A stretch of DNA of 64,000 nucleotides, from contig NZ_AUEG01000003.1 in the NCBI RefSeq assembly GCF_000425865.1, forward strand, positions 1 through 64,000, in the 5' to 3' direction. Source of the DNA: Lacticigenium naphthae DSM 19658 (GTDB lineage: Bacteria; Bacillota; Bacilli; Lactobacillales; Carnobacteriaceae_A). Below, one piece after another: positions 2 to 16,572 of this stretch. The notes beneath the pieces are model-generated. The model had not been told where the DNA came from. It made no database searches and saw nothing but the letters and a program-made list of their open reading frames with translations. How positions within the stretch are numbered: position 1 is the stretch's first letter; the number at the start of each line of letters is the position of its first letter. The translations under genes were made by a program, and so were the position numbers.

Positions 2-283
2 GTGAAGAGGTACATCAGAACAACGTTCCAAACCCTGAATAAATACCTTGATTCAATAGAGAACTCCTGTAAATATACCTTGTCCAACGGACATTTAGAG
101 GGCATTAACAATAAGATAAAAACAGTCAAACGAAGTGGCTATGGTTACCGTAATTTCAATCATTTAAGAGCACGTATTCTTATTAGCTTTAAATTAACTG
201 AGAAAACAGATAAAGAAAGTAGACCTTTAACGTTTATAGAAGAAAAAGAAATAGAAAAGCAACGAACAATGAAAAGCGCATAA
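2..283 (+). mobile_element. ISL3-type transposase, C-terminal part (cut by window edge)
   Basis: The 93 visible residues match the C-terminus of ISL3-family DDE transposases: a run around residues 27-50 with the pattern SNGHLEGINNKIKTVKR, then GYRNFNHLRARILI, which carries the last catalytic Glu (E33) followed by the typical N-K-K/R-x-x-R segment. The frame is open to the first base, so the gene begins outside the window and the GTG at position 2 is not a real start. The basic tail (EKEIEKQR) looks complete and ends in TAA. An intrinsic hairpin starts six bases after the stop. Whether the element is intact cannot be judged from this side only. Confidence 0.85.
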
Positions 284-1134: not shown

Positions 1135-2412
1135 TCATTGATTTTCAAATAAATCAAACAGTATTTTCCCATCTGTTGAAGTAGGGAAGCTTAGACCTAA
1201 TGCGTGTAGAAATGTAGGACCTTCATCAACTAAACGAGCTTGTTCAATTACCATTCCAGTATTAATTGTCGGTCCACTCATCATCAAAAATGTTTCATAA
1301 TTATCTTTTGTTGGACTATATCCATGAGTGGCCTTATACAATGAATTTTTCTCTTTGACAGTTTCCATGAATGGTTTGTTGTTTTCAGGAAGAAAATAAA
1401 AACCTCGTTTGGCTTCAATTAAAAAAGTGCAATCTGGATCAGCCCCGAGAGCATTTGCTTGCTCCTGGTTATAAATGACTTCGATGCAATCTGGATACAG
1501 TTGTAAAAGCTCAAAAATCGATTGATCAGATACCTCACCATTACTATAAATGTAGCACGAGCCTTCTGCGGGCTGTGCTATAACTTTCCATTTCTTTACA
1601 TGCCCATTTTTGTCTACTTCTATCCAGCCTTCTTGTCTGAACAACACATTTAATCGGATCGCCGTGTGTGTATCGATTTGATAATGATCACCAAATATAG
1701 CTAAAATTGTTTCATCAAAAATTCCTTGTTGTTTCATTGCACGTATAATTTGTCCAAGATGCTGATCCATTCGCTGAATAGCTGCCTTGGCTTGTTTAGA
1801 ATCCACACCATGATGGTGGCGCATGTAATCTAAATCAACAAAATGTATAGCCATTAAATCGGGATTTTTAGTTTTTATCGTATCGATGATTCCCGCAGTT
1901 AAAAATTCATCTAATTCCGGTTGCATTATCCCATTTCTCAATTTTCCGAATTTTTTATCTAGTTGATATACAAAAAAAGGACTTCCTGAGTAAAGAGAGA
2001 CCATAACTTGATTTTGCCAAGAACGATTAGGAAAAATTTCCGTTAGATTATAGTCGATGGATCGACTTTTTCCAGTGACTGGCCATAAAAAGCTGGCAAC
2101 ATTCCATCCATTCTCGTGTGCGATATCAAAAATTGTTGAACTTTGAATATCTTGAGCATACCAGAACCAATCTGGTGAGCTTTTACTCGGTTGTAATTTT
2201 GTATTGTGTGTGATTCCATGCTTATGTGGATAAAGTCCCGTCAAAATAGACGTATGACACATATAGGTTAGAGAAGGATAAACCGTTTCGACATTTTTAA
2301 CTAGTGCACTTTTTTTCAATAAATAGTTAAAATTCGGTAATGTTTTTGCATAGTCTAGATCTTTCGACCCAAATGCATCTAGTGAGATCATATACAATTT
2401 TTGTTTTCCCAT
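1135..2412 (-). CDS. Type I phosphodiesterase / nucleotide pyrophosphatase (alkaline phosphatase superfamily)
   Basis: The protein opens with LYMISLDAFGSKD, the first metal-binding Asp of the alkaline phosphatase fold, followed by YPSLTYMCHTSILTGLYPHKHGI, which contains the nucleophilic Thr and the PxKHGI signature of NPP-type phosphodiesterases. Later metal ligands are visible in MAIHFVDLDYMRHHHG, LAIFGDHYQ and the KATHGYSP segment near the C-terminus. No signal peptide is seen, so it is likely cytoplasmic. The substrate is unknown. The start was set at the ATG at 2412 because GGAGG lies 5 nt upstream; an in-frame ATG at 2424 overlaps that ribosome site. It lies downstream, on the same strand, of the structured RNA at 2505-2743, which could be its leader. 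Confidence 0.85.
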   Translation of the reverse strand: MGKQKLYMISLDAFGSKDLDYAKTLPNFNYLLKKSALVKNVETVYPSLTYMCHTSILTGLYPHKHGITHNTKLQPSKSSPDWFWYAQDIQSSTIFDIAHENGWNVASFLWPVTGKSRSIDYNLTEIFPNRSWQNQVMVSLYSGSPFFVYQLDKKFGKLRNGIMQPELDEFLTAGIIDTIKTKNPDLMAIHFVDLDYMRHHHGVDSKQAKAAIQRMDQHLGQIIRAMKQQGIFDETILAIFGDHYQIDTHTAIRLNVLFRQEGWIEVDKNGHVKKWKVIAQPAEGSCYIYSNGEVSDQSIFELLQLYPDCIEVIYNQEQANALGADPDCTFLIEAKRGFYFLPENNKPFMETVKEKNSLYKATHGYSPTKDNYETFLMMSGPTINTGMVIEQARLVDEGPTFLHALGLSFPTSTDGKILFDLFENQ

Positions 2413-2504
2413 AATATCCTCCATTTTACTTTACCTTATTATCCCATAGAACCAAATAATAGATAAAGAAATATGATTTTTCATCTATTATTCTTTTGTA
2501 AAAC

Positions 2505-2568
2505 AAAAAAAACAGACCTACTTGAGACAAAAACCAGTCATACTGGCTCAATCTCAAAGTAAGTCTGT
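2505..2568 (-). terminator. Long intrinsic terminator of the structured RNA
   Basis: The minus-strand stem ACAGACTTACTTTGAGA pairs with TCTCAAGTAGGTCTGT (2512-2568), with a smaller CCAGT/ACTGG hairpin in its loop, and is followed by eight T. Confidence 0.8.
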
Positions 2569-2743
2569 TGTTTTGCAAACATCTAAAATAGATGTGACGG
2601 GATCGTTCACAGCGATCTTACGTCCTCACCAGCATCCTGCTGTGTACTAAAGTACTGTGACCTGCATAAAACTATCTTGTCCACTTGTCGTCCGAAGACG
2701 AAATGATAAAATACCATCTGAACAAGAGTCAACTCATCGCATA
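2505..2743 (-). ncRNA. Unassigned structured RNA, about 240 nt, with own promoter and terminator
   Basis: On the minus strand a promoter (2750-2777) is followed by a stretch with many strong local stems and no reading frame. CTTGTTCA/TGGACAAG (2719-2726 with 2676-2683) closes a domain holding two hairpins, one with a C(UUCG)G tetraloop (2688-2701). Then come GTAC/GTAC (2644-2655), CAGC/GCTG (2630-2642), GACG..GATCG/CGATC..CGTC (2596-2624) and ACATCTA/TAGATGT (2579-2595). It ends in a long terminator (2505-2568). I compared it from memory with RNase P RNA, tmRNA, SRP RNA, 6S RNA, T-box and the common riboswitches and found no match. It may be a stand-alone sRNA or a cis leader of the phosphodiesterase gene that follows. 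Confidence 0.6.
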
Positions 2744-2749
2744 CCAAGT

Positions 2750-2777
2750 AGTATACCATGAATTTGACAAATTACAA
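2750..2777 (-). promoter_or_regulatory. Promoter of the structured RNA
   Basis: On the minus strand TTGTAA (2772-2777), a 16-bp spacer and a consensus TATACT (2750-2755) predict transcription from about 2743. The promoter sits immediately downstream of the SGNH hydrolase stop. Confidence 0.6.
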
Positions 2778-2783
2778 TAGTTT

Positions 2784-3422
2784 TTAATTTAAGTTACAGT
2801 TGTTTAACCATTCTTGAGCAATAAAAGAGTGACCAGCTAAGGTAGGATGAACTCCATCCTCTCCAGTAAGAAATTTAAATCCGTAAGAAAGCCCGGTTTT
2901 ATTCAATAAAGCATCTAACGGAATATAATCTGTTTGGTATTCTCTCGCCATTTTTCGAACAATTTGAATGCGTGGATCAAGATCTTTGCGCCAACTTGAA
3001 CGATCTTTTGGGTAGGCTAACACAAATGGGTCGATGAGGATCACTCTAGCATCTGTTCGCTGCAAAACTTGCTTCAATAAAAAACGATAGTCCGATTCGA
3101 AATTTTCAAACTCTGCTTCTGTCCCAAAAATATCTGAATCAATGTTATGCCAGGTGTCATTGATTCCAATCAGAATAGAAACGATATCGGGTTTAAGATT
3201 CAAGCAATCTACTTCCCATCGATCGACCAAGTCTCTAATTTTGTTCCCCCCGACACCTCTATTAATAAAAGAAAAATGATAATCTGGATACTTTCTAAAT
3301 AACTCACTGCCAACTAATAAAGGGTATCCTTTTCCTAAATCTAAATCATCAGAAATATTGCGCCCAGCTTCCGTTACGCTATCACCAATAAATAAAATCC
3401 GATCATTTCTCTTTAGTTTCAT
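2784..3422 (-). CDS. SGNH/GDSL-family hydrolase
   Basis: A 212-residue esterase-like protein with all four SGNH blocks: GDS at residues 13-15 (nucleophile S15), the Gly in NRGVGGNKI, GIND at 86-89 (Asn88), and DGVH at 189-192 (Asp189/His192). No signal peptide, so it is intracellular. Such enzymes deacylate or deacetylate sugars, lipids or thioesters; the substrate cannot be told from sequence. Its start (AAGGAGAG upstream of the ATG at 3422) overlaps the end of the upstream ROK kinase by 20 bp, so the two are translationally coupled. This suggests a role in removing acyl groups from a sugar that the kinase phosphorylates. Confidence 0.85.
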   Translation of the reverse strand: MKLKRNDRILFIGDSVTEAGRNISDDLDLGKGYPLLVGSELFRKYPDYHFSFINRGVGGNKIRDLVDRWEVDCLNLKPDIVSILIGINDTWHNIDSDIFGTEAEFENFESDYRFLLKQVLQRTDARVILIDPFVLAYPKDRSSWRKDLDPRIQIVRKMAREYQTDYIPLDALLNKTGLSYGFKFLTGEDGVHPTLAGHSFIAQEWLNNCNLN

Positions 3423-16336: not shown

Positions 16337-16383
16337 CGTAAAAAAACTATATAAATTGCAACACAAAAAATGCTGGTACAATT

Positions 16384-16448
16384 CTAATAGTCGGACATTT
16401 TACGGTGCCCGGTAGAGACTTAAAGCCCATATCGCTTAATTATATTAG
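16384..16448 (-). promoter_or_regulatory. Purine (guanine-class) riboswitch aptamer
   Basis: The minus strand contains P1 CTAATA/TATTAG, J1/2 TATAAT, P2 AAGC/GCTT with loop GATATGG, J2/3 GTCTCTACC, P3 with loop CCGTAAAA, and J3/1 GTCCGACTAT. These are the conserved blocks of the xpt-pbuX riboswitch. The specificity position in GACTAT is C (adenine riboswitches have U there), so guanine or hypoxanthine is the expected ligand. Confidence 0.95.
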
Positions 16449-16572
16449 ATGTATTCACTTGTAAACACACTATAACTTTTTCAATTTCAAGAATCAAGAG
16501 TATAAACATATTTTAATTAATTAAATACTTCTAATGTTCGTATTTAACATAATTTCAAAAAGGAGCTTTCCT

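Follow-up and report, generated by a model that had tools for sequence, protein, structure and literature searches.

In group A Streptococcus, the RNA MarS is stable and transcribed on its own, and its deletion lowers mga and Mga-dependent products; in vitro, MarS shifts the 5' region of mga in a gel, and an 88-CC-89 change abolishes the shift (PMC5613026). The same text already describes its conservation throughout lactic acid bacteria (PMC5613026). Srn046, the counterpart in Streptococcus agalactiae, is a separate transcript of about 200 nt, confirmed by Northern blot, with a level that drops in late stationary phase and in acid (PMC4448216). Three further papers equate the S. pneumoniae asd RNA with srf-17 (PMC6212727), list the S. 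pyogenes asd RNA among intergenic RNAs (PMC6431027) and place the asd motif among the RNAs of Lactobacillales (PMC2864571).

The window, that is, the whole 64,000-nt stretch of Lacticigenium naphthae DSM 19658 DNA analysed here, carries on its minus strand a locus that the initial annotation had described as an unassigned RNA that did not fit the common families. The Rfam search proposed there as a check removed this novelty: positions 2602..2741 (minus strand) match RF02840 (Ref68/Lacto-3, of type sRNA gene in Rfam) over the full model, 1-124, scoring 44.7 bits where the gathering score is 44 (E 1.7e-8 for a 481-base stretch). Because the margin is small, 0.7 bit above gathering, we carried out an independent test with R1, a full-length model made from the aligned RNAs of 17 loci of the window's own family, with the window left out. 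R1 also found the RNA, at 2574..2741 (minus strand), with 66.9 bits and an E-value of 4.6e-12, the E-values of our own models being roughly calibrated. When R1 was given 55 sources, consisting of earlier RF02840 or RF03066 finds and the window, it matched the 53 that form set A3, leaving L083 and L091 without a match, and 48 of the 55 were matched at E < 0.01. The window shares with other RF02840 members the 5' end UGCGAUGAGUUGA, the loop AGGAU of helix P5 and the loop CUGUGAA of helix P6.

In the same stretch, RF01732 (asd; gathering score 84 bits) gave no match up to E 10, and RF03066 (COG3610-DE) reached 26.5 bits (E 0.0087), below its gathering score of 73.5; we therefore file the window's RNA under Ref68 and the superfamily proposed below, and not under RF01732 or RF03066. 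Matches to bglG-cis-reg and psm_mec in the terminator half of the RNA, with 25.0 and 19.5 bits, respectively, were far under gathering and were discarded.

Predicted transcript and its boundaries

The whole predicted transcript occupies 2505..2742 on the minus strand, and its length of about 238 nt agrees with the approximately 240 nt annotated initially. The boundary of 2755 given there did not hold, as that position belongs to the -10 box; the RNA would be expected to start at A2742, judging from the -10 box and from the A that precedes the conserved 5' motif in 62 of 68 loci. The TATACT promoter annotated for the minus strand is indeed present at 2750..2755, with TG in front of it and a weak -35 element, TTGTAA (2777-2772, minus strand; 4/6 consensus), 16 nt upstream. 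This is a consensus match that alone proves nothing, because a promoter scan of about 700 bases returned five promoter-like sites, against 2.9 ± 1.7 in shuffles. Relative to the 5' motif, the homologues are A-rich between -46 and -41 and show a run of T/A from -14 to -8.

At the opposite end, we recovered the long terminator with eight T as annotated: the intrinsic terminator, at 2505..2568 (minus strand), consists of a 57-nt hairpin (2568-2512, -31.6 kcal/mol) and a run of eight T ending at 2505; a simple terminator scan listed none. Likewise, the RNA stretch is overlapped by no ORF of at least 60 aa, in line with the reported lack of a reading frame.

The fold of 2505-2755 has an energy of -82.3 kcal/mol, compared with -60.2 ± 4.3 kcal/mol in shuffles (z -5.15), and none of the 200 shuffles was as good. 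That the RNA stretch goes beyond chance is indicated by its homologues across the order, which share its architecture together with many compensatory changes. Judged from sequence comparison, this is very probably a genuine small regulatory RNA with a transcript of its own, belonging to a family that is already catalogued.

Architecture and covariation

Among the folds listed, comparison of 68 homologues shows a common plan, in which an unpaired 5' end (UGCGAYGRGBYGA) leads into a variable P1, then into a four-way core closed by P2 and finally into the terminator; the core inside P2 is made up of P3 (with P4 and P5), P6 and P7. The complete plan was present in the unforced best folds of 29 of the 68 and among the sampled folds of a further 25, and it was absent in 14, many without P4; sampled folds with a different P2 were seen for L063, L064, L074, L079 and L087. 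In one set of folds P2 was forced from strands named by eye, and these folds were used solely for trimming the sequences of A1 and A2.

In the window, all on the minus strand, the conserved unpaired 5' end UGCGAUGAGUUGA lies at 2729..2741, the sole occurrence of this motif in the 64,000 nt, and is followed at 2675..2727 by the variable P1, which folds here into the three-way stem with a UUCG hairpin that the initial annotation had listed among its strong local stems. The closing helix P2 is formed by a 5' strand, UUUUAUGCA, at 2663..2671 and a 3' strand, UUGCAAAA, at 2571..2578; over 81 sequences, 91.0% of its cells are paired, and both-side changes occur in all four modelled pairs. Enclosed by P2 are the 5' strand of P3 (approximately 2657..2662), the P4 hairpin GUACUUUAGUAC (2644..2655) and the P5 hairpin CAGC-AGGAU-GCUG (2630..2642), with its conserved GGA loop, 99.1% of cells paired and A146 in 81/81 sequences. 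They are followed by the P6 stem-loop (2596..2624), with the loop CUGUGAA and its GUG in 81/81, and by the P7 hairpin ACAUCUA-UUU-UAGAUGU (2579..2595), with 86.2% of cells paired and both-side changes in 7/7 pairs. P6, which probably corresponds to the part of MarS that binds mRNA, pairs less well over the alignment set, with 71.9-95.0% of cells paired depending on the sub-helix.

The Ref68/Lacto-3 model and the window have in common the 5' end, P1, P3, P5 and P6. The Rfam match stops in P6 and covers neither P7 nor the strand that closes P2 nor the terminator, and P4 of the window is an insertion with respect to the Rfam consensus. Both P2 and P7, which extend beyond the Rfam match, covary strongly.

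The covariance analysis that had been suggested for homologous regions bore out the structure, with compensatory changes present in the homologues. In alignment A4, which comprises 81 sequences (52 of them also in the alignment behind a second model, R2) and which was fitted to the structure and hence leans towards it, 88.8% of cells were paired, as compared with 51.3% in shuffles and at most 40.9% with slid partners, and the covariation score was 0.863, where shuffles gave 0.215 and slid structures no more than 0.105. None of 500 shuffles reached the value of A4 for the measures other than the count of pairs changed on both sides, which did not separate A4 from shuffles (42 versus 40.0; reached by 40/500). 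When all column pairs of A4 were ranked, pairs of the structure held 40 of the top 42 places. At the 5' end, 9 of the 13 positions are conserved in at least 98%, with G9, G12 and A13 in 81/81 sequences.

Range across genomes and the relation of three Rfam families

RF02840 matched 223 of 395 Lactobacillales genomes, 118 of them over the cut-off, and R2 matched 169 of 256, approximately two thirds, with one match each. In a class-wide sample of 299 genomes, whose share outside the order is unstated, R2 produced 23 matches, 22 of which were in Lactobacillales; the sole match outside the order (G485, E 7.8e-4) has the 5' motif and lacks the UGUGRA loop, and is probably due to chance. Among 14 named control genomes, RF02840 matched Lactococcus lactis alone, under the cut-off. 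A strict pattern search yielded 37 named contigs, of which 36 were from Lactobacillaceae and one was from a Wenzhouxiangella bin, a match that we took for chance. Not every part of the order has the RNA, since no genome of families f7 or f8 was among the matches of RF02840 (395 genomes) or R2 (256 genomes).

In the window's own GTDB family, RF02840 found 19 of 27 genomes at E ≤ 0.001, with only the window's genome over the cut-off (1/27), whereas R2, in which the window is the only own-family sequence, found 21 genomes, 20 of them with 65-102 bits and one more, G017, at E 1.3e-4; the full architecture gives a better search model than RF02840. At locus L203 (G027:C34:1500-2400) we observed P5- and P6-like loops, with the conserved 5' end absent; this locus may be a member that has degenerated or undergone rearrangement.

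A permissive Rfam scan of 17 chosen homologous loci identified five that matched two of RF02840, RF03066 and RF01732, each at E < 0.01. These were L095 (asd 122.5 bits, Ref68 32.4), L101 (COG3610-DE 113.1, Ref68 31.5), L073 (asd 53.4, Ref68 41.1), L110 (COG3610-DE 43.2, asd 34.7) and L008 (COG3610-DE 39.4, Ref68 34.0), with L097 next in line (asd E 7.2e-6, Ref68 E 0.03). In the whole genomes G006 and G014, the COG3610-DE matches coincide with Ref68 loci. R1 likewise crossed the family borders, scoring 63.0 bits for the COG3610-DE locus L101 against 66.9 for the window, 28.2 bits (E 7.4e-4) for the asd-type locus L095 and 27-30 bits for L097-L100. Since homologous loci match all three of them, RF02840, RF03066 and RF01732 appear to be one RNA; the scan showed no Rfam clan for these families.

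MarS/asd RNAs (RF01732, Streptococcus) have the 5' end UGCGAUGAGUCGA, the GGA loop of P5 and a P6 loop with UGUGAAC, and the loci of genus g12, taken as Streptococcus from the RF01732 match of L095, were picked up with models built on the window's family as well as with models built on the superfamily; they differ from the window in their shorter P5, and a target, mga, has been demonstrated in group A Streptococcus. COG3610-DE RNAs (RF03066) have the 5' end GACGAGUCGA and the same P5 and P6 loops; RF03066 was over its cut-off in 8 of 198 genomes, all from genus g17 of family f9.

It is likely that Ref68/Lacto-3, COG3610-DE and asd/MarS are one ancient, single-copy core RNA specific to Lactobacillales, with a four-way scaffold, three nearly invariant unpaired elements and an original partner common to the order, the part played by MarS in the virulence of group A Streptococcus being a local elaboration. 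The RNA family itself was already known; what is probably new here is its complete architecture and the probable unity of the three Rfam families. In the literature searched by the names Ref68, Lacto-3 and COG3610-DE, we found no paper on the RNA under any of them and none tying Ref68 or COG3610-DE to MarS. If the three families are one RNA, the MarS findings in a pathogen could be read together with those on sRNAs of enterococci and lactobacilli, and the ancestral function would be open to search outside the pathogen, including by exchange of homologues.

Two other RNAs have general properties in common with the one described here: raiA RNA/ModT (RF03072) is a stable, widely conserved structured RNA (PMC11706538), and 6S RNA (RF00013) is a single-copy regulatory RNA. 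Up to E 10 the window had no match to RF03072, nor did 40 Lactobacillales genomes contain one, although its 14 controls were equally silent and this result does not prove absence; the window's genome contains a separate 6S gene (G000:C1:153763-153949); a relative of raiA/ModT or of 6S RNA was rejected on this lack of a match and on the separate gene, respectively. A sub-threshold match to the enterococcal sRNA EF0820_EF0821 was observed in L068 (559-895, minus strand; 75 bits versus 442, E 1.3e-16), perhaps representing a diverged relative.

Neighbouring genes and mode of action

The RNA is flanked upstream by a GDSL/SGNH hydrolase gene (2784..3422, minus strand), also upstream in 18 of 19 own-family loci, and downstream by a type I phosphodiesterase gene (1135..2424, minus strand), which lies outside the RNA unit and follows it in 3 of 68 loci. 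The initial annotation offered either a free sRNA or an attenuating leader. The former is consistent with the RNA having its own predicted promoter and terminator and with the separate transcription of the RNA in relatives, whereas the latter does not accord with the variety of downstream genes. Stretches similar to the SGNH and ROK genes of the window occur upstream in L053, and a stretch similar to its phosphodiesterase gene occurs downstream in L054, both loci from family f2, which suggests an old arrangement that this family and the window have in common.

A leader of the phosphodiesterase gene, acting by attenuation at the terminator, would fit the location of both on the same strand, the distance of about 84 nt from the terminator to the GGAGG ribosome site of the gene (close to the 85 nt annotated), the recurrence of the gene downstream in the three loci mentioned and an early prediction of the asd RNA as cis-regulatory, cited in PMC5613026. 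However, among 65 of the 68 loci, those with a mechanically called ORF of at least 70 aa on the fetched stretch, the first downstream ORFs fall into 43 clusters, with 42/65 on the strand of the RNA and 23/65 on the opposite strand, which argues against attenuation; the fetched stretches span 1.7 to 5.2 kb, so some neighbours may have been missed. The downstream gene varies even among own-family loci, and MarS is transcribed apart from its neighbours (PMC5613026). We rejected an attenuator of the phosphodiesterase gene on synteny, and consider a leader extremely improbable. Hardly better is the chance that translation begins at the first base, on a leaderless mini-ORF at the 5' end, AUG CGA UGA (2742-2734, minus strand), through which the RNA would engage ribosomes. 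Of the 68 loci, 62 have A and 4 have G just before UGCGA, which would place a start codon at the very 5' end, but the UGA is lost where position 6 is C (9/81), and the start sites are inferred rather than mapped. A coding role in general was rejected, there being no ORF of at least 60 aa and the AUG inside the 5' motif not being conserved (UGCGACGGG in L061, L065 and L094).

We consider it reasonably likely that the window's RNA is a free trans-acting sRNA, the genome's single copy of a Lactobacillales-wide RNA that bears three Rfam names, and that it pairs with mRNAs mainly via its P6 loop. Of what this explanation comprises, the homology, the architecture, the single copy, the order-wide range and the unlinked downstream genes were obtained here. 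Trans pairing via the conserved P6 loop, the mode that its counterpart MarS probably uses, is the most probable one for the window. In the GAACC of the P6 loop of genus g12, the CC is located at 85-104, counting from the base just ahead of the motif, in 14/14 loci, and exactly at 88 in L201, suggesting that the tested binding site of MarS is the P6 loop, a mapping made by homologue instead of on the strain's own MarS and dependent on the assumed first base. RNA polymerase would start at A2742, from a putatively strong promoter, and stop at the terminator; the 5' end would stay unpaired, and the scaffold closed by P2 would present the GGA loop of P5 and the UGUGRA loop of P6. The P6 loop would then pair with target mRNAs, as the place of the 88-CC-89 mutation in MarS suggests, and this pairing would change their translation or stability. 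Nevertheless, conservation does not extend to the CC of the MarS site: P6 of the window reads GAACG instead of GAACC and many sequences have UGUGGA, and the loops are more constant than lineage-specific pairing with mRNAs would demand. It also counts against this explanation that the window exceeds the RF02840 gathering score by only 0.7 bit and that, of the 27 own-family genomes, the window's is alone in passing it. A search of the window's own genome for targets of the 5' end (CAACTCATCGCA, at most one mismatch) returned six places, including the gene itself, versus two for the reversed control, which gave nothing to build on.

Loops that stay constant while the stems vary may instead have a fixed partner to serve, either a protein or an RNA. 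It is conceivable, although we regard it as the less probable course of events, that the 5' end and the loops of P5 and P6 fold into a tertiary core to which a protein or some other fixed partner binds, so that the RNA would be a scaffold or sponge and the pairing with mga a late streptococcal addition; we know of no protein partner of the RNA. The loops are nearly invariant while all the stems vary, and bases of the P5 and P6 loops (A4 columns 143, 147, 182 and 187) covary without pairing, a hint that their role is a tertiary one or involves a protein. The column pairs 143/187 and 147/187, joining the P5 with the P6 loop, rank 41st and 45th and are among the strongest signals outside the helices, but these signals do not correspond to base pairs and follow lineages. 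Similarly, position 11, in the 5' end, is complementary to position 144, in the P5 loop, in 81/81 sequences (72 C-G, 5 U-G and 4 U-A); however, a pseudoknot between the 5' end and P5 hardly exceeds shuffles in covariation, with 0.165 (reached by 8/500 shuffles) against 0.134, and a version slid by -3 gives 0.161. The third pair of this pseudoknot is missing in 38/81 sequences and the first pair in 11/81, and the pseudoknot was rejected, having no support beyond one lineage.

Elsewhere in the window, the frame at its very start (2-283, plus strand) has a translation that we take to resemble the C-terminal part of a transposase, and a purine riboswitch aptamer was found at 16368-16467 (minus strand), with 62.6 bits.
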